Shown here piece after piece: positions 17,343 to 36,031 of a stretch of DNA of 37,502 nucleotides. Location: contig PBMX01000024.1 in assembly GCA_002722935.1 (NCBI GenBank), positions 1-37,502 of the forward strand. Reading direction: 5' to 3'. The stretch is from Phycisphaerae bacterium (GTDB taxonomy: Bacteria; Planctomycetota; Phycisphaerae; Phycisphaerales; SM1A02). Under the pieces are notes generated by a model, which did not search any database, was not told the origin of the DNA, and saw only the letters and a list, made by a program, of their open reading frames with translations. The position numbers and the translations under genes are program-made. The first letter of the stretch is position 1. Every line of letters begins with the position of its first letter.

Positions 17343-18986
17343 ATGACGCCCGACCAGGAACCAATTGAATCCGAGCAACTCCTGGCAACACAGGAATCTT
17401 CACTTGGTGGCAACACGGAGGATGAGATTCGTGAACGTTGCCGGGTGCTTGGCCTGACCTGGCATGAACGACCGACACAGGCGGATCCCGCCGCCACCTC
17501 GCTGATCGAAGCGGACGTCGCGGTACGACTTCGCGTGGTCCCACTCCGATTGGAGGGATCACGCCTGATCCTGGCCATGCTCGACCCCCTCGATACGGAT
17601 GCCGCCGATGAGATCGCCACGCTCACGGGAAAACCCGTCACTCGCGAAGGCATGGAGAAGAAACACTTCTCGGAACTCATGCGGGAGCACTACGGCACGA
17701 CCGCCTCGAAGATGGCCGACGCCCTCGCCGGCAGTTCAGAAGACCTTGATGACGACCTGGAACACAATCTCGAGGCCATCGAGGCGGATGACATCCACCG
17801 CATGGCCGAGGAACCGACCCTCATCAACCTGGTCAACCTCATCCTCCTGGAGGCGATCCAGGGCCGCGCCTCGGACGTCCACATCGAACCCTTCGAGAAT
17901 GAACTGACGGTCCGGTACAGGATCGACGGTCTGCTGCACACGCAGAAGCCTCCGCCGAAGCATCTCCAGCCGGCGTTGATCGGCCGCATCAAGATCATGT
18001 CGGGAATGAACATCGCCGAGCGATACGTTCCCCAGGACGGGAAGATCGCCCTTCGCTTCGAGGGAAGGAAGGTCGACATCCGTGTCTCGACCGTGCCCAC
18101 GCTCTACGGCGAGTCCGTCGTCATGCGTATTCTCGACAAGACCTCCTTGTCACTGGATCTCGAGACGCTCGGAATGAGAACGGAGCTCATCTCGACGATG
18201 GATGAACTCATCCAGAAGCCCCACGGGATGGTCCTCGTCACCGGACCAACCGGCTCGGGCAAGACGACGACACTCTATGCCTCGTTGACGAGGCTCTACG
18301 ATCCGAGCAAGAAGATCATCACGATCGAGGACCCCGTCGAATACGAACTCGGCGGCATCAACCAGATCCCGGTCAATCCGAAACGTGGCCTGTCCTTTGC
18401 CAGCGGTCTGCGATCGATTCTCCGCCTGGACCCCGACGTCGTGTTCGTCGGCGAGGTCAGGGACGGGGAGACCGCGGACATTGCGATCCGATCCGCCCTG
18501 ACCGGACACCTGATCTTCTCCACCCTCCATACGAATGACGCCATCAGCAGTATCGGCCGGCTCGTCGACATGGGGGCCGAACCGTTCCTCGTCGCCTCCG
18601 TGCTCGAGGGACTCCTTGCACAACGACTCGGACGACGAACCTGCCCTCACTGCAGGGAACAGGTTCCGATGACGGACGAACAGGGCCAGCGACTCCGGAG
18701 CGACGAACGGGACATGTTCGACGGACGCGTATGGCATGGTGTCGGCTGCGAGAAATGCAACAACACGGGATACCTCGGTCGAATCGGGTACTTCGAACTG
18801 CTGAAGATCAACGGACCGCTCCGCGCAGCGATTTCATCGGGAATGAGCTCCAACGATCTCCGGGATGTCGCACGGAACGACTACGTGACCATGCGGCAGG
18901 ACGGGCTCCTCAGGGCCGTCGAAGGCGAAACGACCATCGCGGAAGTCCTGCGGGCGACGCAGGACGCCGACGACATGGAAGGTTGA
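17343..18986 (+). CDS. gspE: type II secretion ATPase GspE
   Basis: This hexameric cytoplasmic ATPase powers pseudopilus assembly and sits on the GspL/GspF platform. The start is ATG 17343, with AGGAG 7-8 bases upstream. The N-terminal GspE/MshE_N-type domain (residues 1-130) is followed by the ATPase core: Walker A GPTGSGKT (301-308), the Asp box/Walker B region RLDPDVVFVGEVRD, and the His box HLIFSTLHTNDA. A zinc site, CPHC ... CEKC, near the C-terminus is typical of GspE/PilB. At 547 aa it has the expected length. PilB cannot be strictly excluded on this gene alone, but the H-I-J-K-C-D genes that follow favour GspE. Confidence 0.93.
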   Translation: MTPDQEPIESEQLLATQESSLGGNTEDEIRERCRVLGLTWHERPTQADPAATSLIEADVAVRLRVVPLRLEGSRLILAMLDPLDTDAADEIATLTGKPVTREGMEKKHFSELMREHYGTTASKMADALAGSSEDLDDDLEHNLEAIEADDIHRMAEEPTLINLVNLILLEAIQGRASDVHIEPFENELTVRYRIDGLLHTQKPPPKHLQPALIGRIKIMSGMNIAERYVPQDGKIALRFEGRKVDIRVSTVPTLYGESVVMRILDKTSLSLDLETLGMRTELISTMDELIQKPHGMVLVTGPTGSGKTTTLYASLTRLYDPSKKIITIEDPVEYELGGINQIPVNPKRGLSFASGLRSILRLDPDVVFVGEVRDGETADIAIRSALTGHLIFSTLHTNDAISSIGRLVDMGAEPFLVASVLEGLLAQRLGRRTCPHCREQVPMTDEQGQRLRSDERDMFDGRVWHGVGCEKCNNTGYLGRIGYFELLKINGPLRAAISSGMSSNDLRDVARNDYVTMRQDGLLRAVEGETTIAEVLRATQDADDMEG

Positions 18987-18993
18987 ACAGGAC

Positions 18994-20253
18994 ATGCCGA
19001 CCTTTCAATACCAGAGCCTGACGGCCGACGGCACGAGACAGAGCGGCGTGATCACGGCGCAGAACAGGGCTGATGCCGTTCGACAGCTTCTCGGCAGGGG
19101 GGAAACCGCAACGAGCATTTCCAGCGCTGCCGGTGACGAGCATGGTGAAGAGGCGTACCCGGAAGCACCCGTTGCTCGAACACGCATCGGCCGAGGCTCC
19201 TCCAGGCCTCGCATGTCACGGGCCGAAATGGGAACCTTGATCAGGGAACTCGCCACGGCACTCGAAGCGGGCCTCCCGCTGATGCAATCGTTGAAGACCA
19301 TCAGGAAGCAGGCCTCGGGCAAGGGAGCCCCGGCTGTGCTCGACTTCATGATCGAACGGGTCGAGGCCGGTGAACCGCTCTACAAGGCCGCCCAGGACTA
19401 CGGCCGACCCTTCGACGACCTGATCGTCGGCATGCTTCGTGCAGCCGAGGCCTCGGGCCGTACGAGTGAGATCCTGCACCAGCTCGCTGAACTGCTCGAT
19501 CGGGGCGTCGAGCTCAGGCGCGAGCTGATGGGCGCACTCTTCTATCCCTTCATCGTCGCCATGCTGATCGTCGCGAGCATCGTCATTCTCGTGACGGTGG
19601 TCGTGCCGCGCATCATGGAACCGATCATCGCCGCAGGAGGCGGAGTCCACACCCTCCCCCTGCCGACGAGGATCATCCTCGGTGCCGCGGACTTCGCGTC
19701 CAGCTGGTGGCTCGCCTGCATCGTCGTCGCCGCCATCGGCTGGTATGGATGGAACTCGTGGGTAGGTCAAGCCGAGAACCGGGTCCGCTTCGATCGATTC
19801 AAGCTCAGGGTCCCGATCCTCGGACGGCTCAATCGGGACGTCGCGGTCGCCCGCTTCACCCGTACCCTCGGCACACTCACCACCGCAGGCCTCCCACTGC
19901 TCGATTCCCTCCGAATCACGCGGGACACGCTGGGCAACACCGCCATGATGAATGCGATCGATGAAGTGGAGCATCAGGTCACCGAGGGCAAGCCGCTGGC
20001 CGACCCCCTGGAACGATCCGGGCTCTTTCCCCCGCTGCTCGTCCAGGTCGTGAACCTCGGCGAACGCTCGGGCAAGCTCGAGAACATGCTGCTCCACGCC
20101 GCGACCGCGTTCGATCGACAGGTCAATGTCTCCATCAAGATCGTGACCAAGGCTCTCCCCCCCCTCCTGATCGTGATCATGGCCTGCCTGGCCGGGTTCG
20201 TGCTTGCGGCCATTCTCCTGCCCCTGCTCGAGATGCAGGCACTGATGCAATGA
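18994..20253 (+). CDS. gspF: type II secretion inner-membrane platform protein GspF
   Basis: This 419-aa polytopic membrane protein links the ATPase to the growing pseudopilus. The N-terminus MPTFQYQSLTADGTRQSG is the classic GspF start. Two repeated T2SSF domains are visible, one around LIRELATALEAGLPLMQSLK and one around FTRTLGTLTTAGLPLLDSLR. Each is followed by hydrophobic segments, with three membrane helices in total (near 190-210, 228-250 and the C-terminus). The gene lies 7 bases after gspE, and its stop overlaps an ATG in the gspG frame. Confidence 0.93.
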   Translation: MPTFQYQSLTADGTRQSGVITAQNRADAVRQLLGRGETATSISSAAGDEHGEEAYPEAPVARTRIGRGSSRPRMSRAEMGTLIRELATALEAGLPLMQSLKTIRKQASGKGAPAVLDFMIERVEAGEPLYKAAQDYGRPFDDLIVGMLRAAEASGRTSEILHQLAELLDRGVELRRELMGALFYPFIVAMLIVASIVILVTVVVPRIMEPIIAAGGGVHTLPLPTRIILGAADFASSWWLACIVVAAIGWYGWNSWVGQAENRVRFDRFKLRVPILGRLNRDVAVARFTRTLGTLTTAGLPLLDSLRITRDTLGNTAMMNAIDEVEHQVTEGKPLADPLERSGLFPPLLVQVVNLGERSGKLENMLLHAATAFDRQVNVSIKIVTKALPPLLIVIMACLAGFVLAAILLPLLEMQALMQ

Positions 20254-20287
20254 AACAGAACCAGTTCGAGTTCGTTGAACTCGTGGA

Positions 20288-20293
20288 AAGAGG
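20288..20293 (+). promoter_or_regulatory. ribosome binding site favouring the internal gspG start
   Basis: AAGAGG lies 10 bases before ATG 20304. The in-frame ATG at 20250 overlaps the gspF stop but has no comparable purine tract. Confidence 0.45.
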
Positions 20294-20303
20294 TACCAGA
20301 ACA

Positions 20304-20750
20304 ATGCATGACATGAATGACCGAAGAAAAAGACGCAGACGACATCGACGCGGCTTCACGCTCGTCGAGATCATCGTCATCGTGACGATCATGGCGATTC
20401 TCATGACCGTCGTCGCGACGACCCTGACCCAGAGATTCGGCGCAGCCAAGAGCAGCCTGGCCAAGACCGGGGCCGCTCGCCTCAATGCCGCCCTGCAGAA
20501 CTACCTGATCGACCAGGGCCTCTCGGCCCCACCACCCGACTTCGACTTCGAGACCCTCATCCTCCGAAGTGACGAAGGTGGAGGAATCAACGGGCCGTAC
20601 GTCGAGAACGTCGATCACATCAAGGATCCATGGGGCAACCCGTACGTGCTCGTCATTCCCGGAGAGGTCAACCTCACGTGGGACATCATGTCCTACGGCG
20701 AGGGTGGTCAACCAGGAGGCGAAGGTCCGTTCGCAGACGTCACGAACTGA
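20304..20750 (+). CDS. gspG: major pseudopilin GspG
   Basis: GspG is the main subunit of the T2SS pseudopilus, cleaved and N-methylated by the prepilin peptidase. The start chosen, 20304, gives a 17-residue very basic leader (RRKRRRRHRRG) cut before FTLVEIIVIVTIMAIL, with Glu at +5. ATG 20250 would give a 35-residue leader. The C-terminal domain carries the conserved DPWGNPYVL block and an Asp-rich loop like the calcium site of GspG. At 148 aa it is near the family size. It is followed by three minor pseudopilins and gspK. Confidence 0.9.
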   Translation: MHDMNDRRKRRRRHRRGFTLVEIIVIVTIMAILMTVVATTLTQRFGAAKSSLAKTGAARLNAALQNYLIDQGLSAPPPDFDFETLILRSDEGGGINGPYVENVDHIKDPWGNPYVLVIPGEVNLTWDIMSYGEGGQPGGEGPFADVTN

Positions 20751-20753
20751 ACC

Positions 20754-21338
20754 ATGCGTCCCGCCGCCTCCAGTTCGCACCGCCGCGGGTTCACGATGGT
20801 CGAGATCATCATGGTCTGCGTCATCCTGGCGCTGCTGCTCTCGGCGATCCTCGTACGGCTCACGAGCCTGCAGGGACGGAACTTCGATACGGTCGTCGAC
20901 CAGGCCGGCGACCTGCTCATGATGTACGCACTGCGCAGTGAACACGCCCGCCAGCCGGTGGGACTCTTCGTCGACGAGTCCAGGAGCTCGATCAGGCTGA
21001 TGCGACGGGAGTCCGGGGACGATCCCGGGGACACGTCCCTCTGGAAGTCGGATCCGACCGTCCGGGAAGTCCGCCTGCCGGACTTCATGAGCATCTACGA
21101 ACTCGAAATCTACATCGACGGGGACCAGGCGGACCTGACCCAGTGGCCCCTTTCCACCATGCCCGGTGAAGATCGACCCGCCGTCGAAATCGTCCTGTAC
21201 CACGAGGACCGCGAGGTTCGACTGAACCTTCCGCCGACGGCACTGGCGCCTGTCCGGATCGAGGATGGACGCGACACCCTCCCCGTTCGCGAGATGGAGG
21301 ACCTCGATACCACCGGTCGCTGGCAGGAGGACTGGTGA
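20754..21338 (+). CDS. gspH: minor pseudopilin GspH-like
   Basis: The 194-aa prepilin-like protein has leader MRPAASSSHRRG, cut before FTMVEIIMVCVILALLL, with Glu at +5. The C-terminal part is beta-rich without the DPWGNP motif. Its place between gspG and the I-J-K genes fits GspH, a minor pseudopilin of the shaft or tip. Sequence alone separates minor pseudopilins poorly, so the letter rests mainly on gene order. It starts 3 bases after gspG. Confidence 0.78.
   Translation: MRPAASSSHRRGFTMVEIIMVCVILALLLSAILVRLTSLQGRNFDTVVDQAGDLLMMYALRSEHARQPVGLFVDESRSSIRLMRRESGDDPGDTSLWKSDPTVREVRLPDFMSIYELEIYIDGDQADLTQWPLSTMPGEDRPAVEIVLYHEDREVRLNLPPTALAPVRIEDGRDTLPVREMEDLDTTGRWQEDW
21325..21330 (+). promoter_or_regulatory. 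strong ribosome binding site deciding the gspI start
   Basis: AGGAGG lies 9 bases before ATG 21340. The frame is open further upstream, inside gspH, but this site marks the real start. Confidence 0.7.
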
Positions 21339-21339
21339 G

Positions 21340-21837
21340 ATGACTTCTGCACGAAGACATGTCCGGCGAAGAGGTGTCGTGCTGCTCGACGTGATTCTCG
21401 GCGCCCTGCTGCTTGCGACCGGCCTGGCGATCGTGGTGTCCCTGAGCACCCAGTCCCTTGCGCGGCAGGTCGAGGGTGAGCATCGGATGACCGCGGCCTG
21501 GTTGGCCGACGAACTCCTGTCCATGGTCCTCGTGGAAGGCCCGCAGCAACTCGCCGGCAGCTCTCCGGAGATCTGGATGGGCGAAGGCGGAGGGAACGGT
21601 CGGTTCGACGAACCCTTCTCGGACTACACCTATGAACTGGACATCAACTACATCGATGACTTCCAGCCCTACGTCGTGACGGTGTACGTGCGATGGCCCA
21701 ACCGGAGCGGGATGGGCGAACTCTCGGTCTCCACCCGGATCTCGCACCGGCGAGGGGAGGACGAGGAGGAACCCCCCAGAGAACCCCTCGAGCCACTTGA
21801 CAGGGACAGTCGCTACTTCGACGAGGAGGGCGCATGA
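21340..21837 (+). CDS. gspI: minor pseudopilin GspI-like with Asp at position +5
   Basis: The 165-aa protein is a prepilin with leader MTSARRHVRRRG, cut before VVLLDVILGALLLATGLAI. In most pseudopilins other than GspK residue +5 is Glu; here it is Asp, which may affect N-methylation or docking. Identity as GspI comes from position before gspJ and the general V/T-L-L-E/D-V-I-L helix start. The C-terminus is acidic and Pro-rich (EDEEEPPREPLEPL). The gene overlaps gspJ by 4 bases (ATGA). Confidence 0.75.
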   Translation: MTSARRHVRRRGVVLLDVILGALLLATGLAIVVSLSTQSLARQVEGEHRMTAAWLADELLSMVLVEGPQQLAGSSPEIWMGEGGGNGRFDEPFSDYTYELDINYIDDFQPYVVTVYVRWPNRSGMGELSVSTRISHRRGEDEEEPPREPLEPLDRDSRYFDEEGA

Positions 21838-22718
21838 CGGCTGTACGCAGCATCCATCCACGTGTACGAAGAGGATTCACGATCGTCGAACTGATCCTGG
21901 CCGGCGTCATCGCGTCCCTGGTCATCGGAGTCCTGACGATGTCGATGTCGCAGATCATCAAGTCCAAGTCGATCAGCAAGGAACGACTCGACGCATTCGT
22001 GCGGGCCGACGTCGCCCTGAAGAACCTCCGACGCGACATGATCTCGATTCTCAGGCGGGACGACCTGTTCTTTACTCGCCTGAAGATCGAGGATGACTCG
22101 ATCCAGACACCCAGAGGTGAGTTCAACCGTGATGAGATTCTCCTCTTCAACCATCGACTCAGGGCATCGAGGGAAATCGACTACAACGGAGAAGGGGTCG
22201 AGTACGAAACCGCCTACCGTGTCGATGACGACGACTGGGGGCCGGTTCTCTGGCAACGACGAGACGCCCTCCCCGACCAGTACCCGACGGCCGGAGGAAT
22301 CGTGACCCCGATCTCGGAAGGCGTCGTCGAACTCTCGGTCGAGGCCTGGGATGGAGAACAATGGCTGGAGGACTGGGACTCCGACTACGACGGGTTGCCT
22401 CACGCACTGCGCATCTCGGTCCGGGCAAGTGGACACCTTCCCGGCGAATCCGCGTGGGACGCGCCCATCGCGACACTTCGGACGATCGTTCCGCTTGATC
22501 GCGTCCCACCACCCGATGACGTGATGGAGGATCAACTTCAGCAGTTGATCGCCCTGCTCAACAATGAAGGCGGCGACGGTGAAGGCGGCATCGGACTCAA
22601 TGCCGACGGCGGAGAGGATGGCGAGGGCGCGATCAACAACGATGCCGCCGAAAGTTCCGATGGACCTCCCGACATCAACACCATTCTGAATGAACTGAAC
22701 ACGGAGCGACCGGATTGA
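21834..22718 (+). CDS. gspJ: minor pseudopilin GspJ-like
   Basis: The 294-aa prepilin-like protein has leader MTAVRSIHPRVRRG, cut before FTIVELILAGVIASLVIGV, with Glu at +5. The globular part (DVALKNLRRDMISILRRDDLFF, then VELSVEAWDGEQWLEDWDSDYDGLP; position guides) matches GspJ, where the W-D-D-G style loop is common. The last 75 or so residues are Gly/Asp/Glu-rich low complexity, longer than usual for GspJ. It overlaps gspK by 4 bases. Confidence 0.82.
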   Translation: MTAVRSIHPRVRRGFTIVELILAGVIASLVIGVLTMSMSQIIKSKSISKERLDAFVRADVALKNLRRDMISILRRDDLFFTRLKIEDDSIQTPRGEFNRDEILLFNHRLRASREIDYNGEGVEYETAYRVDDDDWGPVLWQRRDALPDQYPTAGGIVTPISEGVVELSVEAWDGEQWLEDWDSDYDGLPHALRISVRASGHLPGESAWDAPIATLRTIVPLDRVPPPDDVMEDQLQQLIALLNNEGGDGEGGIGLNADGGEDGEGAINNDAAESSDGPPDINTILNELNTERPD

Positions 22719-24076
22719 AACGCCATGCATGCACAGTCCGGAGGAGTTCTGCCACGAGACGCGGCTCGGTGATCATCGTGATCATCTGGGCGATCTCCAT
22801 CTGCGCCCTGCTCGTCACATCCCTGATGGTGTTCGCAGGTCGCCAGTCGATGCTCGGTCACGAGACCGTCGACCGGATCCGCGCACGCTGGGCCGCGAGA
22901 GCCGGCATTGAATCGACCCTCGCCGTGATGGGGCACCATACGGAGGAGCCGGAGATCGATCATGCCCTCGCGATGAACCTGGACATGGAAGTCGTCGCGG
23001 CTGGTGAAACGGACCACGGCACATGGTCGATTCTCTACGACGATCTCGACGGACAGCGATGGCCCGGCCCGATGGATGAACACATGAAACTGAATGTCAA
23101 CGGCGACGGCCGAGGGTACATCGCCGTGATCTTCTCACCGCTCTCCTGGGGAGTCGCTCCGGCGATCGAGGACTGGATCGACGAGGATGACGACCCCCGC
23201 GACCTCGGCGTCGAGCGTGATTACTACCTTTCTCTGGATGCACGCTACGAGCCCCGGAACGACTACCTCTGGCACATCGCGGAATTGGAACTCATCGCAG
23301 GCCTGGACCCTGAAGACATCCGTGGCGAGGACTGGAACCTCAACAATCGACTTGATGAGAACGAGGATGACGGCGACGGCTCCCTCCCCGAAGACGAGCC
23401 GGACAATCGCCTTGAGGGAGGGTGGGCCGCCTACCTGACCGCATCGACCATCGCCGACGGAGCCACCGCCAGCGGACTGCCTCGGCTGTATTTCCCCGCG
23501 ACCACGGTCGAGGAACTGGCTGAACGAACTGGTCTCCAGCCCAGCCAGGCTGAAGCCCTGATGAACATGGCCAAGGAGGACGGATTCGAGCTCGAATCAC
23601 TGATAACGACCCCCTTGGGAGTCGAAGCGGATGAGGACGGTGGAGGGCCTGGCAGCTCCGCCAGCAGCGGGGATTCAAGCGTTCCACCCCTCGAGGATTG
23701 GCAGATAACGGCGATTTTCGATGAAACCACGACAAACAAGCCACACCAGCAGGCCGTCGGCAAGCTCAATATCAACACGGTCCCCCGGACACTCCTCCTC
23801 GACATGTACACCGGACAGGAGGATCTCGTCGAAAACATACTCAGCATGCGAAGAAACAGGGCCGAGGGCATCACGAGCATCATGGACCTCCGGGAACTGC
23901 CCGGCATGACAGATGATCTTCTCTGGCAGTTGGCGAGGACCTTCACGACCCGAAGCAACGTCTACACCATCACTTCGCGAGGCCGAAGTGGCAGTTCCGG
24001 GGCAGAAGTTGAAATCGTGACCACCGTTGATCGTTCAACTGTGCCGGTTCGGATCCTCGAATACAGGGAGGAATGA
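22715..24076 (+). CDS. gspK: minor pseudopilin GspK
   Basis: GspK caps the pseudopilus tip with GspI and GspJ. The likely start is TTG 22715, overlapping the gspJ stop (TTGA), with GGAG 8-9 bases upstream; no ATG in frame precedes the membrane helix. The leader ends RRG before SVIIVIIWAISICALLVTSLMV. As expected for GspK there is no Glu at +5. A large domain of about 400 residues follows, with a helix-hairpin-helix-like block at the C-terminus (KLNINTVPRTLLLDMYTG ... DLRELPGMTDDLL) typical of GspK. The central Asp/Glu-rich loops (DENEDDGDGSLPEDEPD) may bind calcium, as in known GspK. Confidence 0.88.
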   Translation: MKRHACTVRRSSATRRGSVIIVIIWAISICALLVTSLMVFAGRQSMLGHETVDRIRARWAARAGIESTLAVMGHHTEEPEIDHALAMNLDMEVVAAGETDHGTWSILYDDLDGQRWPGPMDEHMKLNVNGDGRGYIAVIFSPLSWGVAPAIEDWIDEDDDPRDLGVERDYYLSLDARYEPRNDYLWHIAELELIAGLDPEDIRGEDWNLNNRLDENEDDGDGSLPEDEPDNRLEGGWAAYLTASTIADGATASGLPRLYFPATTVEELAERTGLQPSQAEALMNMAKEDGFELESLITTPLGVEADEDGGGPGSSASSGDSSVPPLEDWQITAIFDETTTNKPHQQAVGKLNINTVPRTLLLDMYTGQEDLVENILSMRRNRAEGITSIMDLRELPGMTDDLLWQLARTFTTRSNVYTITSRGRSGSSGAEVEIVTTVDRSTVPVRILEYREE

Positions 24077-24089
24077 GCCGTAAGGGCTC

Positions 24090-26012
24090 ATGAGGGCCTC
24101 CAGGAGCGCCAAGGACAGGGTTTCATCCATTCTGGATCACGCAGTGACGAGTACACCCAGGACATCTTCAGGGTTCAACGAGGCCTTCATACTCCACCTT
24201 CGTGGAGCTGCATGGCATGGTCTTCTTGCAGAATTGGACCCAGTGCTCGGCCCACGCGTGCTGGAAACCGTCTCCTTCGAAGGCCAGGGGGACCAGGCCG
24301 TCCAGGACTGGATCGATCATCGAGGCGTCAAGACCGTTCGAGCCATCCTCCCGGCCTCGAATGTGATCTGTCGAACATGCAGTCTGCCGGTAACCGATGA
24401 GGCACAACTCGAGTCCGCCCTGCAGTTGCAGGTAGAGACACGCCTGCTTGGTGCCGCCCCGACCCACAGGACTGGAGCAGCACTCCTGCCAGCCGCCTCC
24501 CATGCCAGCACGCGGACGGGCTTGATCCTCGCCTGGCCTGAAACCTCGAGTTTCACAGGCCCGCAACTCGAGGAATCCCCCTATTTCATACCGGATATCG
24601 CGGCGCTTGCTTCTCTGGTGGATGGACTTCATCCCGCCGACCCATTGGTGTGGTGTGATCGGACGGACGGCTCCGTAGGCCTCGTCCTGGCCCAGCAGGA
24701 ACGCGTCCTTGTCCGCGCCACCCGCGAAGAACCCGGCCTCGACCAATCCGCAAAGGACAGGTTCCACAACCTGCTTCTTGAAACCGCCCTCCAGACCGGC
24801 AGTACCCAGGACTCGGCCGAGTCGATGGCACAACGAACAACTTCGTCGATGGAAGCCCTCCAGGGCAGTCAACTCCTCCTGTTGCCACAGGAGGTTGTCG
24901 ACAGTATCCATGAACGTGCCAGGGATGTACCCACTGATCCGGACTGGCTCAACGAGTGGGGCATCTGCCTTGGAGCCGCCATGGCAATGGGAGACGACCT
25001 GGTCCTGCTGACGTCCTTCAGGCGCGAGATTCCCATGGAGGCTCCCGCCTTCCTTGAAATGAGCACCGAGCGGCTGGGGATGAAGAACGTAGCCGCACTC
25101 CTTGCACTCGTTGCCGTACTCGTTCTTGCCTTCGGTCCCCTTCTCGTCCACGGCACGAGGCTCGGCCTTCTTTCGATCCTGCACCCCGAGATCGATGCAC
25201 AGGTTCGTTCCTACGAGGAGGGCACGAACCAGTCGACGATGTACAGGGCCATGATGAACGAGGCATGGCCGATGTCGAAGCTCATGGCCGACATCGCGAA
25301 CAACACGCCCGAAGGCATCGATATCGAATCCATCAAGATCGGGCATGGTGAACCGGTGAAGATCCGCGGAGTCGCAAAGCCAAGTGGTGATGGAGATGCC
25401 GCCGCGCTGGCGACCCTGATGAAGGCCCAGCTGCAGGGCTCCGGGGTTTTCGATGACGTGACCCTGCGATGGGAAAACTCCGAGACCTACGGGGACCGCT
25501 CCTTCGACATCAGTGCCGAGGTGAAGCGGCCTCATTTCAGGCCCGCCTACGCAACCGAGCAGGACTTCGGAGCCTGGACTCTTTCCGCGAGGCGAAGTGG
25601 AGAAGGGCCCGGCGGTGAGGAGTCGGGTGACACGGGCGATGTACTCGTCGAGGCCGAGACTCCCAGGACCCCGGTGGTGGCCACGCCACCCCAAACGAAT
25701 GACCTTGTCGAATCGCAGTCCCCTCGCACCTCGAGACCAAGCCGCGGCGGCAATGACGGGCTGGCTTCCCGAGGAAACTCCGACAATCAGGGAGCCGACC
25801 TGACGAGTGTTCCCACCGGGCGTATTCCCGAACCGCTCACCGAGGACCAGATCAGCACCCTGTCGATGGACGAGGCGAGGATCAAGCTCAAGGAAGTCGC
25901 GGATGCACGGAAACACGTCAGGGATGAAGCCGTGAAGGATCGACTTCAGACCGAGTTCAGGATGATCATGAACCACATGCGAGTACTGCGTGAAAGCGGA
26001 GGATCCCGATGA
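24090..26012 (+). CDS. gspL: GspL-like type II secretion platform protein with long C-terminal extension
   Basis: GspL is a bitopic protein whose cytoplasmic domain holds GspE and whose periplasmic domain pairs with GspM. This 640-aa protein has a cytoplasmic half of about 325 residues with an actin-like pattern (VLETVSFEGQGDQAVQDWI, then LPVTDEAQLESALQLQVETRLL; position guides). One membrane helix follows near residues 335-355 (ALLALVAVLVLAFGPLLVHG), then a ferredoxin-like region containing DIESIKIGHGEPVKIRGVA. After about residue 500 comes a low-complexity Ser/Pro/Thr/Gly/Glu stretch, and a charged helical tail (DEARIKLKEVADARKHVRD). GspL is normally about 400 residues, so this tail is unusual. 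It overlaps gspM by 4 bases. Confidence 0.78.
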   Translation: MRASRSAKDRVSSILDHAVTSTPRTSSGFNEAFILHLRGAAWHGLLAELDPVLGPRVLETVSFEGQGDQAVQDWIDHRGVKTVRAILPASNVICRTCSLPVTDEAQLESALQLQVETRLLGAAPTHRTGAALLPAASHASTRTGLILAWPETSSFTGPQLEESPYFIPDIAALASLVDGLHPADPLVWCDRTDGSVGLVLAQQERVLVRATREEPGLDQSAKDRFHNLLLETALQTGSTQDSAESMAQRTTSSMEALQGSQLLLLPQEVVDSIHERARDVPTDPDWLNEWGICLGAAMAMGDDLVLLTSFRREIPMEAPAFLEMSTERLGMKNVAALLALVAVLVLAFGPLLVHGTRLGLLSILHPEIDAQVRSYEEGTNQSTMYRAMMNEAWPMSKLMADIANNTPEGIDIESIKIGHGEPVKIRGVAKPSGDGDAAALATLMKAQLQGSGVFDDVTLRWENSETYGDRSFDISAEVKRPHFRPAYATEQDFGAWTLSARRSGEGPGGEESGDTGDVLVEAETPRTPVVATPPQTNDLVESQSPRTSRPSRGGNDGLASRGNSDNQGADLTSVPTGRIPEPLTEDQISTLSMDEARIKLKEVADARKHVRDEAVKDRLQTEFRMIMNHMRVLRESGGSR

Positions 26013-26584
26013 TCGATGCGAACACGCATGTCGAGCGATTCAAGGGACTGCCGAGATCCTGGCAGTGGATCCTCCTCGCGACCACGTTCATGGTCGCCTT
26101 CCTGACCTGGGCATATGTCATCGCCCCGATCGGGGACGGCTGGGCCGAGCAGGCGAACCGCATCGAAGCGGACCTCGACCGCACCAGCAGCGGCATTGCG
26201 ATGGATGCCCACACGAAGAACGCCGTCATGATCTTCGGCCCACTCGATCTGCCCAACAAGAAGGCCGACGGGTCGTTGACGCTGATCGAGAACGTGCAGA
26301 TGATTCTCGCCGATCGCGGAATCACGAATGACACCTTCTACCAGTCGCAAAGTGCGAACATCAAGGCAAGCGTGCTTCCGTGAGTTGCGCGTGCGGGCGA
26401 GAAGATCGAGCGCATCAAGGGTGAACTCGACTTCGAATCGAAGCCCGAGGTGGCCATCGCCATCATCGCCGACATGGAACGAAGCCCTGAGATCGAAGCG
26501 ATCTCGAACCTCAAGATGGACAAGTTGGGCAACGGCCAGGTTCGAACCCGCCTGACCGTGGAAGCATGGGTGAGAACACGATGA
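26009..26584 (+). pseudogene. gspM: GspM-like gene interrupted by an in-frame TGA
   Basis: The gene starts at ATG 26009 (4-base overlap with gspL). One membrane helix (WILLATTFMVAFLTWAYVIAP) is followed by a PilO/GspM-type periplasmic part. TGA at 26381-26383 would end the product at 124 aa (...SANIKASVLP). The same frame continues without another stop to 26584: ARAGEKIERIKGELDFESKP ... TRLTVEAWVRTR, which completes the ferredoxin-like domain. The final stop overlaps the ATG of gspC by 4 bases, as elsewhere in the operon, so the intact gene clearly spans 26009-26584 (191 codons before the stop). CGA to TGA is one C-to-T change. Options are a real null allele, a sequencing error, or readthrough. 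No good start for a separate second half is visible. Confidence 0.82.
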
Positions 26585-27378
26585 ACACATCGAAACAGTC
26601 ATCACTTCGCGGCCCCCTGGGGATCAGCCTGCTGGCTCTCCTGATCATCGGCGTGTTCCTCGTGGCCATGATGCCGGCCATCTACAGGTCGGCATCCACG
26701 GTCTTCACCTCCGGTACTGATGAGGCCGGTTCGATCGACAACCTGATCGTGGCCCATTCGGGAAACATGGACACGGACCTGGACCGGTTCAACGGCCGGT
26801 CCTTCTTCTACCTGCCGCCGATCAAGCGACGCCCGGCTCCACCACCCCCACCGCCTCCGCCGCCGGTGGTCACCGAGCCGGTTGAACCTCCTCCACCACC
26901 GCCGCCCACCTACCCACCGAACTACACGGGGCCGAAACTCATTGCCATCCTGGGCGATGAAGCCTGGTTCCGGAAGCCCAGCAGCCTCAAGTTCGGTGTC
27001 GAGGATCCCAAGACCCGGATCCGGGTCGGTGAAACGATGCATGGCATCGAACTGCTGTCGACGAATCCACCGCGTGGCATCGAGGTCAAGTACAACGATG
27101 GAGGCCCCTACGAGGTCCCCCTCATCGACATGGACTCGGATCCCTTCTCGAAGGACATCGACACGTCGGTCCCCCGGGGAATTCTCGAGGATATCGACCA
27201 GGAGGATGCCGCCCCGGCATCGCCTCCTCCAGCCGTCGAAACCCCCGCTGAACCGGCCCAGGAGCCCCCTTCAAAGGCAGTTTCTCCGGAAACCCCCTCT
27301 GAAACCCCTGCCGAGCAGGATCCACCCCCACCGCCGGTCCCCTCCCAGTCACCCGGCGGGCTCGATGAGTTCGAATGA
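26581..27378 (+). CDS. gspC: GspC-like inner-membrane protein with polyproline linker
   Basis: GspC joins the inner-membrane platform to the secretin. The start chosen is ATG 26581 (MNTSKQSS), which overlaps the full gspM frame; ATG 26566 is an alternative. One N-terminal membrane helix (LGISLLALLIIGVFLVAMM) is followed by a periplasmic linker with two proline runs (9 and 7 Pro). Then comes a small beta domain (GPKLIAILGDEAWFRKPSS ... RIRVGETMHGIELLS) that resembles the HR domain of GspC/PilP. The tail is Pro/Glu/Ser-rich. There is no PDZ domain. Assignment rests on topology, the small beta domain and place before gspD; PilP-like is the alternative name. Confidence 0.72.
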   Translation: MNTSKQSSLRGPLGISLLALLIIGVFLVAMMPAIYRSASTVFTSGTDEAGSIDNLIVAHSGNMDTDLDRFNGRSFFYLPPIKRRPAPPPPPPPPPVVTEPVEPPPPPPPTYPPNYTGPKLIAILGDEAWFRKPSSLKFGVEDPKTRIRVGETMHGIELLSTNPPRGIEVKYNDGGPYEVPLIDMDSDPFSKDIDTSVPRGILEDIDQEDAAPASPPPAVETPAEPAQEPPSKAVSPETPSETPAEQDPPPPPVPSQSPGGLDEFE

Positions 27379-27465
27379 CCCTCGATTTGGTGGAATAGAG
27401 CCCCTCTCCGATTCGTTCAACAGGCCCAGTCGATCCGATACAGGGTGCATGGACCTATTGAAACC

Positions 27466-27471
27466 GGAGGG
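27466..27471 (+). promoter_or_regulatory. ribosome binding site deciding the gspD start
   Basis: GGAGGG lies 9 bases before GTG 27481, which opens directly into a signal peptide. An earlier in-frame GTG at 27445 lacks such a site. Confidence 0.6.
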
Positions 27472-27480
27472 AATCCAGAC

Positions 27481-30312
27481 GTGGCATCCAGGCAGTTGAT
27501 CCGATTCGTATTTCCGACTCTTCTCTTCGTAGCGGCCCCGGCTCTCCTCGCCCAGGCCCAGGAAGATGAGCGACCGGCCCCCGAACCACCGACCACTGCG
27601 GGAGCACCGGAAGAGGACACGTCCGACCCCATCACCTTCCCCGGGACGGATGAAACCGTCTCGACTCGAGAAGGTGCGTCCTCGCGTCCATCCGACAGGA
27701 TCGATCCCGAGGAAGAGGCTCACCTGGAACGACGGCCCATACCGGAAGGCAAGATGAACCTCGCGCTTGACGAGGTTTCCATCTCCGACCTGATTCCATG
27801 GATCGCCGAGATCACCGGGAAGATCGTCATGCCCCTGGGCCTGGAAGGATCGGGCATCGGGCTTGGAACCGGCGGTGGGAAGATCACCCTCATCGTCGAC
27901 GAGCCGATCGAGAAGCGTGAAGCTCTGGAGATGATCTTCAGCGCCCTGCGCATGAACAAGATCGCCGTCATCGAACGACCTGATGTCATCATCCTGACCA
28001 AACTCGAGATCACCCAGATCACGAACGAGATGAGTGACATCCCCGTGCTCGACTCGGCGGTCGACGTGCGGGATCGCATGGACCGCGGCACCATCGTCCT
28101 GAAGATCTTCAACGTCGAACGAACCGATGCCGTCGAGATCTCGGAAAAGCTGGCCGACATGAAGCCGGACTACGCCGAGGTCTGGGTGGACGAGATGTCG
28201 AACCAGATCATCGTGCTCGGTGACATCGGCCTCTGCCAGCAGTACGACAAGATCATCCGGGAACTGGACCAGAAATGGCTCAACAGGAAGCTGCACACCT
28301 TCCGGCTCAGGTGGGCCGACGCCAACGAGGTCTCCAACAACATCCTCGACATCTTCGAGGAAGGGACGGCAACCGCATCCTCCCGTTCTCGATCGTCCAG
28401 CACCAACCGGTCGAATACGCAGCAGCGGGGCAACACGCGAACCACGTCCACGACCACCGCCTCCGGCGTCGAGCTGCGCCTCACGGTCAACGTCCAGCAG
28501 AACGCGGTGACGGTGCAGTGTGAACCGGAGGTCATGGAAGAGATCGCGATGCTGATCCTGACCGAGTGGGATGTCCCCCGTTCGCCCGGAACTTCGAGGC
28601 TCTTCGTCCTCAAGTACACCGATCCATTGAAGGTCAAGACCCTGCTCGAGGAAGTGCTCGGTGAAAGCACCGGGGCCTCGGCGACCGCCCGGGGTGGGCA
28701 GAACGCCCAGCGCGCAAATGCGACCCAGGCGATCTCCGGCATCTACTCCATCGATGCCTACCCGGACAAGAACGCCCTGCTCGTACTCGCCAAGACCGTC
28801 GAGTCGTTCGACTTCATCCAGACCATCATCAATGAACTGGATCAACCCAGCTCCGTGGGCGTCCCGCGAATCGTTCCCTTGAAATACGCCCGGGCCGTGG
28901 AACTGGCCGAGGAACTCAACGTGCTGCTCTCGAAACCGGGCGCGAACGTTTCAATCCCGAGACCGGAGTCGGGACTCAGCGGCGAGGGATTCGAATCCCC
29001 AAGCGGCACCGGTACCGGCAGTTCAACTGCCGACAGTTCCGGAAGCCAGGACCTGTCCTTCCCATGGCAGCGAGGGAGCGAGTCGGATGACCAGTCGCCG
29101 GAGTCCTCGCTGATCGGCAAGGTTCGAATCGTCCCCGTGGTGCGGCAGAATGCACTGGCCATTCTTTCTCCAGCCGCCTTCGTCGAGCCCATGGTGGACC
29201 TGATCCAGAACTTCGACATTCCCCGCAGGCAGGTCCTGCTGTCGGCGACGATCGTAGAGGTCGACATCACGGATCAGTGGAATCTCGGGACCAAGTGGGG
29301 CAACAACCCGCAGGCCTCCAGCAGCGTCAACGGGCAGTTCTTCGGTGGCGGCCTCTTCGATGCCGCAGCCGGCACAGCTGGCGCGGCCGGAGGATTCAGC
29401 TTCGGGATCACCGACTTCCTCGACAACCTGCTCGATGGAACAACCAGTTCCACACTGAATGTCAGCGCATTCGATGTCCAGGTGATCATCGAGGCCCTCG
29501 CGCAGGTCACCAATACCCGCATCATCCAGGAGCCGCGTGTCTTCACCGCGGACAACGAGGAAGCGATCTTCTTCTCGGGCAAGGAAGTCCCGATCCCCGT
29601 GAGCAATACGACCGACCTCAGTGGCGGCAACTCGCTCAATACGCAGATCGAGTACAGGGACGTGGGTGTCTTCCTCAACGTGAGGCCGCGAATCACCCAG
29701 GAAGGAACGGTCGACCTGGAAATCAGCCTTCAACTCTCGGATTCGGTCGGCAATGCAACGGTCGGCCAGATCCAGGGTGAAGTCTTCTCCAGGAAACAGG
29801 TCAACAGTCACGTCATCGTGCTCGATGGACAGACCGTCGTGCTCGGCGGCCTCCTGAAGGAGACTGAAACCCAGATCAAGCAGAAGATTCCGCTGCTGGG
29901 CGACATTCCCATCCTCGGTGAACTCTTCAAGTACAACGACGAGAGCCTGGAGCGGCTTGAACTGCTCGCCTTCATTACGCCGACCGTCGTCCATCGCCCC
30001 CTGGACAACTACGACAACTACAACAGGGAGGATCTCATCCGACTGGAAGAGGTCTCCCAGCCTCTGGCCGATCAGGTCGTCGGGCGGTCATGGTTCTCCG
30101 AAGGCGAGATGCAGTTGAACATCTCCGAGCGCATCACGTCCAGCAAGAACGCCAAGGAAGCCAAAGGGCGTGTCGACGATGGGCTCGTGGAGCCTCCGGA
30201 CCGTGACGCGATCCAGACCGAGATCGACAACATCGAATCAACCGAACCCGATGATGTGCCAAGTGATCTTGACGACATCGACGACATCAAGCCAGAGAAA
30301 CAGCCGGAATGA
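27481..30312 (+). CDS. gspD: type II secretion outer-membrane secretin GspD
   Basis: GspD forms the multimeric gated channel in the outer membrane. From GTG 27481 the protein is 943 aa; GTG 27445 would add 12 residues before the signal peptide (RFVFPTLLFVAAPALLAQA). Periplasmic N domains follow: an N0-like region (MNLALDEVSISDLIPWIAEI), then N1-N3-type repeats (IVLKIFNVERTDAVEISEKL; FVLKYTDPLKVKTLLEEVL; IVPLKYARAVELAEELNVLL). The secretin core runs from about VRIVPVVRQNALAIL to VVLGGLLKETETQIKQKIPL, with the LLGDIPILGELF signature and AFITPTVV. Ser/Thr/Gly-rich inserts separate the N domains. An Asp-rich tail of about 90 residues ends the protein. The 102-base gap before it (27379-27480) holds no gene. 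Confidence 0.93.
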   Translation: MASRQLIRFVFPTLLFVAAPALLAQAQEDERPAPEPPTTAGAPEEDTSDPITFPGTDETVSTREGASSRPSDRIDPEEEAHLERRPIPEGKMNLALDEVSISDLIPWIAEITGKIVMPLGLEGSGIGLGTGGGKITLIVDEPIEKREALEMIFSALRMNKIAVIERPDVIILTKLEITQITNEMSDIPVLDSAVDVRDRMDRGTIVLKIFNVERTDAVEISEKLADMKPDYAEVWVDEMSNQIIVLGDIGLCQQYDKIIRELDQKWLNRKLHTFRLRWADANEVSNNILDIFEEGTATASSRSRSSSTNRSNTQQRGNTRTTSTTTASGVELRLTVNVQQNAVTVQCEPEVMEEIAMLILTEWDVPRSPGTSRLFVLKYTDPLKVKTLLEEVLGESTGASATARGGQNAQRANATQAISGIYSIDAYPDKNALLVLAKTVESFDFIQTIINELDQPSSVGVPRIVPLKYARAVELAEELNVLLSKPGANVSIPRPESGLSGEGFESPSGTGTGSSTADSSGSQDLSFPWQRGSESDDQSPESSLIGKVRIVPVVRQNALAILSPAAFVEPMVDLIQNFDIPRRQVLLSATIVEVDITDQWNLGTKWGNNPQASSSVNGQFFGGGLFDAAAGTAGAAGGFSFGITDFLDNLLDGTTSSTLNVSAFDVQVIIEALAQVTNTRIIQEPRVFTADNEEAIFFSGKEVPIPVSNTTDLSGGNSLNTQIEYRDVGVFLNVRPRITQEGTVDLEISLQLSDSVGNATVGQIQGEVFSRKQVNSHVIVLDGQTVVLGGLLKETETQIKQKIPLLGDIPILGELFKYNDESLERLELLAFITPTVVHRPLDNYDNYNREDLIRLEEVSQPLADQVVGRSWFSEGEMQLNISERITSSKNAKEAKGRVDDGLVEPPDRDAIQTEIDNIESTEPDDVPSDLDDIDDIKPEKQPE

Positions 30313-31524: not shown

Positions 31525-33567
31525 TCAGTCGTCGGCCTCCTGCTCTTCCTGCAGGTAGGTATGCGGTCGGTACAACCAGCCGACCGGCACGAAGAGAATC
31601 GCGGTCCCCAGCATCACCCATGTGAAGAACCAGAAGTAACCGGCTCCCGACAGCGTTTCGCCTCCACCGACATCCCAACGGACGGAATGGGAAAAGGCGT
31701 CATCGGTATCCAGGTCCACTGCTCCACCGTCGCTGTTCTTCGATGGATCCGAAGTCTCCATGCCGAGTTCAGCCTTGCGACGCTCCAACCATGTCTGCTG
31801 GGGGTGTGCCCATGACAGCAGGTCGGATGAACCGGAACGGGCCGCATCCTCGGTCTTCTGTTCAGAGGTGCGCGAGGTCACTTCGACCTCCGCCCGGATG
31901 TCGAACTGGCTCTGCCATGTTGCATCGGGTCCTTCACTTGCAACGATGAATGAAACCCTGTTCTTCAACAGGTAACGCAGCGGGTTCCCCCACGGGTCGT
32001 CGATGTCGCCGATGAGTTCGGACCCGTCACTCGTCAAGGGCAGTCGCCCATTCGCGGTCCAGTAGCTGCCGATGCGATCGATGGCATCCTCGATGCTGGA
32101 GGCCTCCTCGCCGATGAACCCCGTCATCGTGCCGGTCGGAGCGAAGCCGAGACGGATGTCGTCATCTCCACCGAGAACACCGTCTACACCGGCAAGATCG
32201 AGTGCGAAGTTGCCGCCGGAGAGTTCGGTGTACCCGAGTCCATGGTTCGCGGATTCACCGGCCCGATCGACGGTTTCACCCTGCTCCGCCGCCGAGGCGA
32301 AGCCCGCCGCGACGATCTTCGCATGCTCGGCCTTCGAATCGACGAGAATCACGCTGTTGACGCCGGCGGTGAAGATGTTCCCCAGCGAGACACTCATCAG
32401 GAAGAGCGCCATGATCAGGGATTTCATCGTTCGTGGAGCCTGGGTATAGGAGAACTCCAGGCAGGTGATGGAGACCATGACCTCCGAGGCGGTGAGAATC
32501 GCATAGGCCGCGATCTGCCACCCGATGCTCGGTCGTTGTCCCGCATCGACCCATTCCTGCACCATGGAAACCATGGAGAAGCCGATCACCATGATGAAGA
32601 GGCCGATCGCGATCTTGCGTATCGGCGTCAGGGGGAAGACCTTGTTGATCGCCGGGTAGATCAGGTAGGTGAAGAGAGGGATGTAGATCAGGATCATGAT
32701 CGGGTTGACCGCCTGGATCTGTGACGAGAGCCAGGTGACGCCAAGCCAGTCGCGATCGAGATCCTCCGCCTGGAGGACCCAGGAGGAGCCGGTCTGATCG
32801 AAGAGCGCCCAGAAGACGGCGACGAATACGTAGATGATCCCGAGTTTCAGGATGGCGCTGATGCCCTTCCAACTGAAGGTCTCCTTGAACCACTTCAGTC
32901 CACCGGGTGGCACATGGATGAACTTCTTCCTCCCGCACCAGAACAGGAAAGTAGCGATCACCATGAGTACCCCGGGCACTCCGAAGGCCAGGTGGGGCCC
33001 GTACCACTCGAGGAACCATGGAGTCATGAGGGTCGACAGGAAGGCCCCGACGTTGATCGAGAAATAGAACCAGCCGAAGACCTTGCTCAGCAGGTGTCCG
33101 TTCGTCTTGCCGAACTGGTCACCGACGTGCGCAGACACACAGGGCTTGATTCCGCCTGACCCCAGCGCGATGAGTCCAAGGCCCAGGAAGAGCATCCAGC
33201 CGGGATTGATCCCCTCGCCCATTCCCATGAAGGCCAGGGCACCATGACCCAGGCAGTAGACGATGCTCAGTCCGATGATCGTCCGGTACTTGCCGAAGAT
33301 GATGTCACTGAGAAGCGCCCCGAAGATCGGCGTGAAATAGACGGCGGACGTGAAGCCGTGGTAGTTGGCGATGGCCTCCGCCTCCGGCATCGGCTCGTTG
33401 CTGACCGCCCCCGGAAGAAGGAACAGGTAGCTGGTCATGAAGATCGTCAGGATGCCCTTCATCCCGTAGAAGGAGAATCGCTCTGCCGCCTCGTTGCCGA
33501 TGATGTACGGAATGCCGCCGGGCATTCGCTTGGTGGAAATCGGCGCGGTTGCGTACTTGGCTGCCAT
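31525..33567 (-). CDS. POT-family proton-coupled peptide transporter with inserted GspG-like domain
   Basis: POT (PTR2) proteins import di- and tripeptides with protons. The protein is 680 aa, against about 450-520 for bacterial relatives. The start is ATG 33567 with AAGGAG 6 bases upstream. The N-terminal NEAAERFSFYGMKG holds the ExxER proton-coupling motif; the ALGSGGIKPCVSAHVGDQF and FYFSINVGAF blocks are POT signatures. After the penultimate membrane segment (ends near V406-D410), about 230 residues are inserted before the last one (about 643-666). Within the insert, IEDAIDRIGSYWTANGRLPL ... DDPWGNPLRY (D524-P529) and VASEGPD match the GspG/pseudopilin C-terminal domain. POT topology places this insert in the periplasm. 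A hydrophilic linker follows it. Confidence 0.88.
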   Translation of the reverse strand: MAAKYATAPISTKRMPGGIPYIIGNEAAERFSFYGMKGILTIFMTSYLFLLPGAVSNEPMPEAEAIANYHGFTSAVYFTPIFGALLSDIIFGKYRTIIGLSIVYCLGHGALAFMGMGEGINPGWMLFLGLGLIALGSGGIKPCVSAHVGDQFGKTNGHLLSKVFGWFYFSINVGAFLSTLMTPWFLEWYGPHLAFGVPGVLMVIATFLFWCGRKKFIHVPPGGLKWFKETFSWKGISAILKLGIIYVFVAVFWALFDQTGSSWVLQAEDLDRDWLGVTWLSSQIQAVNPIMILIYIPLFTYLIYPAINKVFPLTPIRKIAIGLFIMVIGFSMVSMVQEWVDAGQRPSIGWQIAAYAILTASEVMVSITCLEFSYTQAPRTMKSLIMALFLMSVSLGNIFTAGVNSVILVDSKAEHAKIVAAGFASAAEQGETVDRAGESANHGLGYTELSGGNFALDLAGVDGVLGGDDDIRLGFAPTGTMTGFIGEEASSIEDAIDRIGSYWTANGRLPLTSDGSELIGDIDDPWGNPLRYLLKNRVSFIVASEGPDATWQSQFDIRAEVEVTSRTSEQKTEDAARSGSSDLLSWAHPQQTWLERRKAELGMETSDPSKNSDGGAVDLDTDDAFSHSVRWDVGGGETLSGAGYFWFFTWVMLGTAILFVPVGWLYRPHTYLQEEQEADD

Positions 33568-33643: not shown

Positions 33644-36031
33644 TCAGGACCCCAGTGGAGGCAGGACCTTGATGGGGACCTGCTCCGTCCTGGGCATCAG
33701 GCAGGTGCGGTCGTTGCAGGACTGCCAGGTGATGCTCATGCGACCACTGCGACCGATGTCGCCCGTTCGCGTCAGCGTGATCGGAATCTCCACCCTGCCC
33801 TCATAGACGTTGACCGGCCCGTCAGGGCCGTTGAAGGCGTGCCCATGGGGATAGGCTGCCTGGACCTGCAGGCCCGGTGTCAGGCTCATGATCTCAAGGG
33901 CCACGTTGAACTCGTCCTGCTGAACATGGGCGTTGACGTGCCATCCCTTGTCGATCTCCAGGACGAGGGTCACCGTGGCCGACTCTCCTACGGCGAGGCG
34001 GACCTGCCGATCCGCTGAGGAAAGAGCGACATGCGACCCGGGCTTCTTCGTCGCACCTCCTCCACCCTTGCCGAGCAGGGTCGGATGCGAGCGTTCGAGT
34101 CGATGCAGCCCCTGGACCGAATGGATCGCGCTGCGAGGAGCCTGGACGATGTCGGCACTGACTGCATCCAGGGCCGCCACCGCGTCCTCGCCCCAGTTCT
34201 TCCGACCAGTCCGCTCGTAGAGTTCGATCATGTTGTTGATCATGACGGCGTTGGCGCTGGGCATCGCCCCGTCGTAGAAGGAACGACCTCGAACGAAGAG
34301 GTCCTCCTGGTCGGCCAGAGTTTCATACCAGCCACCGCCCGACTCGTTCCAGAATCGCTCGCGGGCCTGTTGAGCGAGCGTCGCCGCCTGGTCGAGGTAC
34401 CTGCTGTCTCCCGTGGCCTGCTCCAGGCGAAGCAGTCCCCTGATCATGTAGGCGTAGTCCTCGAGGAAGGCGTTGATGCGTGCATCATCACCTCGCCTGG
34501 TGCGAAGCAGTCCACCCTGCCGCGTCCACATGCTGGACATGACGTCATCCGCCGCCTTCGTGGCCGCTTCGACGTATCGCTGCTCCTGGAGTATCCGACC
34601 CGCATCGGCCATGCCACCGATCATCAGCCCATTCCATCCCGTGATGACCTTGTCATCGAGGCCGGGTTGATCACGCCGATCACGGGTTGCAAGGAGAGCG
34701 GCGTTGACGGCCTGCCATTTCCGATGGAGGTCCTTGCCGCTCATCCCGAGTCGCTTGGCCGTGTCCTCGGGTTTTTCCGAGAGGAAGAGTACGTTGCTCG
34801 GAGCTTCGGCCGGATGGTGTGGGTCCTGGAAGTTCGTACCCTTGTTCAGGCCGTAGACCTCGAGCGTGAACTCCACCTCCTCGCCCAGCCCTGCAGCTTC
34901 AAGGGAGGAGCGGATCTCCTCCGGGGTCCAGAGGTAGCTCTCCCCCTCCCTGGCATTGGATTCGGCATCCAGGGCCGAGTAGAAGGCTCCGTCAGGACTC
35001 GTCATTTCTCGAAGAACCCAGTCGAGGGTCTCTGCCGCAACGGCGCCGTACCAGGCATCCCCGGTCTTTTCGAAGGCGTCGGCATAGACCGATGCGAGCA
35101 TCGCATTGTCGTAGAGCATCTTCTCGAAATGCGGCACGAGCCACTGCTCATCCGTGCTGTAACGATGGAATCCTCCGCCAACCTGGTCGTACATGCCACC
35201 CATGGCCATGCGATCGAGAGTGTGCGTGACCGCCTGGCGCGCCGGGGAGAGATCCCAGGCCGAGGTGAGCAGGAACTCGTGCAGTACGGGCATCGGGAAC
35301 TTCGGCCCCTTCTTGTCGAAACCCGCGTGGGTCCGGTCATAGGTTGCGACGAGTTGCGAGATGGCCGCATCCACCTCGCTCCGACCGATCGGGACGGCGT
35401 CGGCCCTGGCCGACATCACCTCGGTCACCTTGGCGGAAACACTGTCAGCCTGCGTATAGACGGCATCCCGCTGCTCGGTCCAGAACTGGTGGATGCTCTC
35501 GAGCATTCGTGGGAAACCCGGTCGCCCCAGGCTGTCGGTCGGGGGGAAGTAGGTGCCGCCGAAGAATGGCTCCAGCGTGTCGGGTGTCAGCCAGACCGAC
35601 AGGGGCCATCCCCCCTGGCCCGTCATGACCTGGACGGCCGTCATGTAGATGTCATCCACATCAGGTCGTTCCTCGCGATCGACCTTCACGCAGACGAAGT
35701 AGGAGTTCATCAAGTCCGCGATCTGCTCGTTCTCGAAACTCTGGCGTTCCATGACGTGGCACCAGTAGCAGGTCGAGTACCCGATGCTCAGGAAGATGGG
35801 CTTGCCTTCCGCCCTGGCACGCTCGAAAGCGGCGTCACCCCAGGGATACCAGTCAACGGGATTGTGGGCATGCTGGAGGAGGTAGGGACTTGTTTCATGC
35901 ACCAGTTCATTCGTGAACCGGGCTTCGGGGGCGGGCGAATCGTCGTTCAAGGCGGATGCTCCACAGACGGGAACCGTCGAAAGTACAAGTGCCAACACCG
36001 GCGCAACAGGCATGGTTGAGTTGGAGTTCAT
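33644..36031 (-). CDS. exported DUF255/thioredoxin-like protein (YyaL/SSP411 type) with C-terminal DsbD-alpha-like domain
   Basis: The protein is 795 aa. A signal peptide ([19 protein letters not shown]) precedes the DUF255 thioredoxin-like domain: [24 protein letters not shown], the redox site C88-Y-W-C91-H, then [13 protein letters not shown] and [13 protein letters not shown] long alpha/alpha-barrel-like region resembling N-acylglucosamine 2-epimerase folds follows ([17 protein letters not shown]). The last 130 or so residues are a beta-sandwich like the N-terminal domain of DsbD ([10 protein letters not shown] ... [12 protein letters not shown] ... [12 protein letters not shown]), with C772 and C777. 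YyaL-type proteins are usually cytosolic without this tail. A periplasmic thiol-redox role is inferred. The gap to the POT gene (33568-33643) holds only that gene's SD. Confidence 0.86.

Follow-up and report, generated by a model that had tools for sequence, protein, structure and literature searches.

The window, a 37,502-nucleotide stretch of a contig from a Phycisphaerae bacterium, carries a gene for a POT family oligopeptide:H+ symporter (Table 1), whose reading frame, strand and coordinates had all been given exactly in the initial annotation. The 680-residue product belongs to PF00854 (E 3.2e-79; 267 bits against a curated cut-off of 27), scores 318 bits against TIGR00926, under the cut-off of that model itself, and over its full length matches PTR2 and MFS models only in a profile search. 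The full-length AlphaFold (AF2) model has 12 membrane helices, with a mean pLDDT of 84.6 and a pTM of 0.87. The closest solved relatives are PepTSo (PDB 2xut/4uvm; E 5e-91) and PepTXc (6ei3; E 8e-81), followed by mammalian PepT2 (SLC15A2) and PepT1 (SLC15A1). POT proteins couple the import of di- and tripeptides to protons, and the transport core of the window protein is intact: E26, E29 and R30 of the proton-coupling motif ExxER are nearly invariant, and the other core motifs are invariant or nearly so. The gene product appears to be a functional symporter of the PepTSo/PepT1-2 branch that couples uptake of di- and tripeptides to protons.

Table 1. Features of the locus in window coordinates.
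Feature	Position	Strand	Basis or remark
T2SS operon (GspE, F, G, J/minor pseudopilins, K, D)	17343..30312	+	context
Window's own GspG, with pilin helix and divergent calcium loop	20250..20750	+	PF08334 E 1.5e-16; TIGR01710 E 7.1e-21
POT family oligopeptide:H+ symporter gene with insert	31525..33567	-	680 aa, 12 predicted TM helices
TM1-TM11 core, residues 1-407	32347..33567	-	motifs ExxER (E26-R30), GGIKP, FYFSIN, FWALFDQ
TM11-TM12 region with extracytoplasmic insert, residues 401-642	31642..32367	-	alignment with insert-free relatives; insert-only model
N copy (residues 444-475) of the strand-strand-calcium loop-strand unit, with loop AGVDGVLGGDDD at 459-470	32143..32238	-	hhalign and loop tally
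GspG C-terminal-like domain, residues 485-565	31873..32115	-	helix without pilin alpha1-N, LP, DPWGNP, three strands
DPWGNP motif, residues 524-529	31981..31998	-	D524 kept in 55/56 and G527 in 53/56 inserts
C-copy calcium loop EGPDATWQSQFD, residues 545-556	31900..31935	-	putative ligands D548, S553, D556
Conserved helix WLERRKAE after the domain, residues 593-600	31768..31791	-	W593 in 56/56, R597 in 50/56
Invariant GG joining insert to TM12, residues 634-635	31663..31668	-	56/56 inserts
TM12, residues 641-665	31573..31647	-	AF2 model
DUF255/Thioredox_DsbH protein with C-terminal DsbD_N domain	33644..36031	-	PF03190 E 2.7e-75; upstream, 76 nt from POT

The POT gene lies head-on to a type II secretion system (T2SS) operon, as had been noted: a 404-aa plus-strand gene runs up to 31523, and the POT gene, on the opposite strand, terminates at 31525. 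The GspG encoded in this operon does contain the DPWGNP motif that had been ascribed to it. It is a divergent member of its family, sharing 27% identity with the relative listed first in the GspG alignment, and its calcium loop reads GEGGQPGGEGPFADV. On the other side, the DUF255 protein is the most conserved neighbour, adjoining the insert-bearing POT gene in 13 of the 14 loci for which upstream sequence is available. In the loci examined, with only the window's own genes as queries, no peptidase gene emerged as a conserved neighbour.

The extra residues that had been reported between the last two membrane helices are there: about 240 of them sit between TM11 (ending near residue 407) and TM12 (starting near 641), which places the insert at residues ~408-640. 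In the POT family helix 1 begins in the cytoplasm, so the TM11-TM12 loop is periplasmic. This loop spans 193-257 aa in the main insert clade and 145-148 aa in two further proteins (L091 and L092), and is usually 9 aa long in insert-free relatives from the same family. The TM9-TM10 loop of the window protein has 5 aa and holds no Ig-like insert of the PepT1/PepT2 type.

The initial annotation had proposed that the last periplasmic loop holds a domain like the C-terminal domain of the pseudopilin GspG, and both profiles and the AlphaFold model bear this out. The C-terminal part of the insert matches the GspG profile (hhalign with a set of 56 inserts, 97.3%, E 2.6e-11), as does the whole insert (19-member alignment A3, 95.9%, E 5.8e-9). 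The best of 150 column permutations of the C-terminal part scored 19.9 against 60.3 for the real profile, and the reversed profile scored 11.9, ruling out a chance motif match as the source of the likeness; the motifs first used to recognise the domain do lie within this part. A search of the PDB with the insert profile placed GspG in all of the best four positions among 177,635 sequences (E 0.03-0.1). The insert-only AlphaFold model has a pLDDT of 75; when the whole protein is modelled, values rise to 91-95 at residues 491-560. When we carried out the suggested comparison of the predicted insert structure with GspG, the top five VIA-align matches were GspG entries (Z 7.2, rmsd 2.1-2.8 over 76-86 residues), ranking above type IV pilins (Z 6.8-5.8) and unrelated chains (4.3 or less). 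Plain Foldseek with the insert model gave no significant PDB match and did not rank GspG as significant, so the fold match rests on the VIA alignment and the sequence profiles. The single insert sequence retrieved nothing from the PDB with phmmer, and Pfam on the insert gave a sub-threshold T2SSG match only (PF08334, 13.1 bits against a cut-off of 21). Taken together, the profile-profile, PDB profile and structural matches make it very likely that residues ~485-565 are homologous to the GspG C-terminal domain.

The insert shares with the major pseudopilin GspG/PulG (PF08334, TIGR01710) its fold, its LP and DPWGNP motifs and a calcium loop. Unlike GspG/PulG, it is lodged between transporter helices, carries an extra duplicated unit, and scores under the PF08334 cut-off. 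The hydrophobic pilin helix is absent, as had been stated, and so is the prepilin cleavage motif; both are marks of GspG membership in TIGR01710.

Residues ~444-475, N-terminal to the GspG-like part, are a second copy of its beta/calcium-loop unit that had previously gone unnoticed. Residues 446-475 (YTELSGGNFALDLAGVDGVLGGDDDIRLGF) align without gaps with the strand-strand-loop-strand end of the GspG-like domain (YLLKNRVSFIVASEGPDATWQSQFDIRAEV), and a profile comparison of the two copies gave 83% (hhalign), a result matched by none of 150 permutations. The calcium ion of E. coli GspG (3G20) is coordinated by the side chains of loop positions 3, 8 and 11 (Asp, Thr, Asp) (PMC3396595), and the C copy of the window insert has putative ligands at these same positions (D548, S553 and D556). 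Both ligand aspartates are present in 52 of the 56 inserts in the C copy, with Ser or Thr at loop position 8 in 55, and in 24 of the 56 in the N copy. Because the ligand aspartates are conserved across inserts, the domain likely binds calcium. The aspartates have been lost in L006, L007 and L133, two of which come from the window's own genus, and the exact PERCAL consensus (G-x-D-G-x-x-[GN]-[TN]-x-D-D) occurs in only two of the 56 inserts (L136 and L143), the window's not among them. The initial annotation also missed a conserved tail between the domain and TM12 (W593...R597 and GG634-635).

Strong matches to the insert in POT reading frames occur in about 45 of the 181 genomes of the window's family, and a phylum-wide sample of 392 genomes placed the insert in three further planctomycete families. 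Named insert-bearing records comprise Phycisphaerales MAGs and a complete genome, CP036290 (Planctomycetes bacterium Pla163). This recurrence rules out an assembly artefact or a local fusion. Across ten close pairs, dN/dS ranged from 0.07 to 0.32 in the insert and from 0.01 to 0.15 in the core and was higher in the insert in all ten pairs; the insert is under purifying selection that is weaker than that on the core. This appendage of a peptide transporter from marine planctomycetes is old and conserved.

On a tree of the transport core from which the loops were left out, 48 of the insert-bearing proteins fall into a single supported group, with four others placed elsewhere. A single origin of the insert on this tree is disfavoured: two changes are needed, and an AU test rejects one clade (p 0.0135, on a quick tree with long branches). 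The shared tail (W...R and GG) points to a single insert with subsequent relocation or loss, and less to two separate captures. The 80 proteins on the tree comprise 52 with a TM11-TM12 insert, 17 with a TM9-TM10 insert, 11 with neither and none with both; as these are related sequences, the mutual exclusivity is an observation and not a test. In a single genus, the locus next to the T2SS is occupied in some genomes by a POT with the TM11-TM12 insert and in others by a distant POT with a TM9-TM10 insert (G163/G165 versus G164/G166/G167/G168), which suggests replacement at this locus. Related POTs without the TM11-TM12 insert occupy the same locus in G072, G164 and G166-G168.

Other large inserts occur among these transporters. 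L010, L011, L013, L014, L154-L157 and their relatives are POTs with an extra 50-248 aa between TM9 and TM10; the insert of L010 has weak matches to Sad1_UNC and F5/8 type C. A more distant POT (L031, 180-2975, a 932 aa frame) has an insert of several hundred residues in its last loop, with repeats that resemble flagellin IN motifs by eye and have no Pfam match.

Matches to the insert profile also include T2SSG domains that lack a pilin helix and sit on planctomycete DUF4190 (PF13828)-type membrane proteins, and these modules are the nearest to the insert by profile (98.9%, E 2e-17). Their bit scores are mostly 26-40, compared with 17-29 for other GspG and 7.8 for the window GspG, a ranking to be read with caution because the insert profile had itself served to select the DUF4190 proteins. 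Derivation of the insert from the neighbouring GspG is unsupported, the window GspG scoring lowest of all candidates. The module of the DUF4190-type proteins is C-terminal on small membrane proteins, whereas that of the window is inserted in a transporter. Its occurrence without a pilin helix on such proteins marks the GspG-like domain as a general extracytoplasmic module. L080-L090 and L094 are proteins of this kind, and their genes often lie as adjacent pairs. Two tandem GspG-like DxWG/calcium-loop motifs are seen in L148 and several in L151 (a frame of ~1180 aa), outside any pilin context.

The arrangement invites comparison with mammalian PepT1 and PepT2, in which an extracellular domain binds trypsin and is not needed for transport (PMC4597091, PMC8565842). 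PepT1 and PepT2 have been described as the only known MFS transporters with a TM9-TM10 extracellular domain, bacterial POTs lacking one (PMC8565842, PMC4597091). Like the window protein, the mammalian transporters have a POT core of 12 TM helices with no HA-HB pair, and carry a single large extracytoplasmic insert on the C-bundle. As had been claimed, site and fold differ: the mammalian insert lies between TM9 and TM10 and consists of two Ig-like folds, and that of the window lies between TM11 and TM12 and is GspG-like. PepTSo and PepTXc have no large periplasmic insert, and PepTSo has about 73 more residues at TM6-TM7, the site of HA-HB. POT proteins, GspG domains and extracellular POT domains are each known; searches of the open-access literature turned up no bacterial POT reported to carry such a domain, and neither this combination nor this loop.

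We tentatively read the insert as a calcium-stabilised, PepT1-like periplasmic docking platform on a working symporter, a proposal to which we would give slightly less than an even chance. Position, fold, duplication, conservation of the calcium-ligand aspartates, purifying selection and the absence of a pilin helix are computed properties of the insert. The appendage consists of a repurposed GspG C-terminal domain and a duplicated strand-strand-calcium-loop unit, and would bind one or two Ca2+ ions that lend it rigidity. Placed on the C-bundle, it may serve passively for docking or capture; in the simplest case it would gather a periplasmic peptidase or a supply of peptides beside the import pore, as proposed for the PepT1/PepT2 domain. 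It would not be polymerised into the T2SS pseudopilus.

The initial annotation had raised binding of peptides, proteases or the secretion machinery. The domain may bind peptides or proteases. As for the secretion machinery, it could be imagined as an adaptor that mimics a GspG subunit, contacts the pseudopilus or T2SS platform and ties peptide uptake to protease secretion. The GspG fold would fit such a role, as would the T2SS genes found in every insert-bearing genome checked and the 25 insert-bearing genomes in which, as in the window, the POT gene is convergent to the GspD gene within a few kb. However, the suggested survey of gsp loci found the T2SS to be universal in the family, where all 181 of 181 genomes have GspG whether or not they carry the insert; T2SSG or GspG matches were present in all genomes checked, insert-bearing ones included. 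Adjacency, too, occurs regardless of the insert: about ten insert-free POTs are also convergent to the T2SS (e.g. G013, G072, G083, G085, G095, G164, G166-G168), and about 20 insert-bearing ones lie far from GspD or on other contigs, counts read by hand from position tables in which contig ends leave some cases undecided. In single-contig genomes of other families (G219, G490, G562), a wide distance separates the insert from the secretin genes. These tables rule out the insert as a mark of T2SS adjacency. The insert is also nearer to the orphan DUF4190 modules than to GspG and lacks the helix for pilus packing. The special tie is thus not upheld: the secretion link is weak, the insert probably does not belong to the adjacent secretion apparatus, and an adaptor role seems quite improbable.

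An unlikely but somewhat better-placed explanation dispenses with a partner protein: the domain would brace the C-bundle and tune transport to periplasmic Ca2+, as a calcium-dependent stability or gating element. The conserved calcium-ligand positions are consistent with this, as are the conserved W593 helix and the GG hinge beside TM12, but related transporters exist without the insert, some members have lost the calcium aspartates, and mammalian transport does not require the corresponding domain, which sits in another loop (PMC4597091). The extracytoplasmic loops of this POT branch might also simply accept domains of little function, a prospect helped by the differing inserts at TM9-TM10 and TM11-TM12, or none, and by the insert's higher dN/dS in every pair. 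Retention of the insert in four or more families, the purifying selection acting on it and the residues unchanged in 56 of 56 inserts argue against such tolerated decoration, to which we assign little likelihood.

It is also possible, though we hold this a shade more loosely, that Planctomycetota independently evolved the PepT1/PepT2 design of a peptide symporter with a recruitment domain of its own, using a pseudopilin calcium domain in loop 11-12, with sister lineages carrying unrelated inserts in loop 9-10, the mammalian site. Here a pseudopilin C-terminal domain stands apart from pili and serves as a general calcium-type module, and a bacterial POT branch with large inserts at either of two loops offers a simple system for testing the role of such domains.
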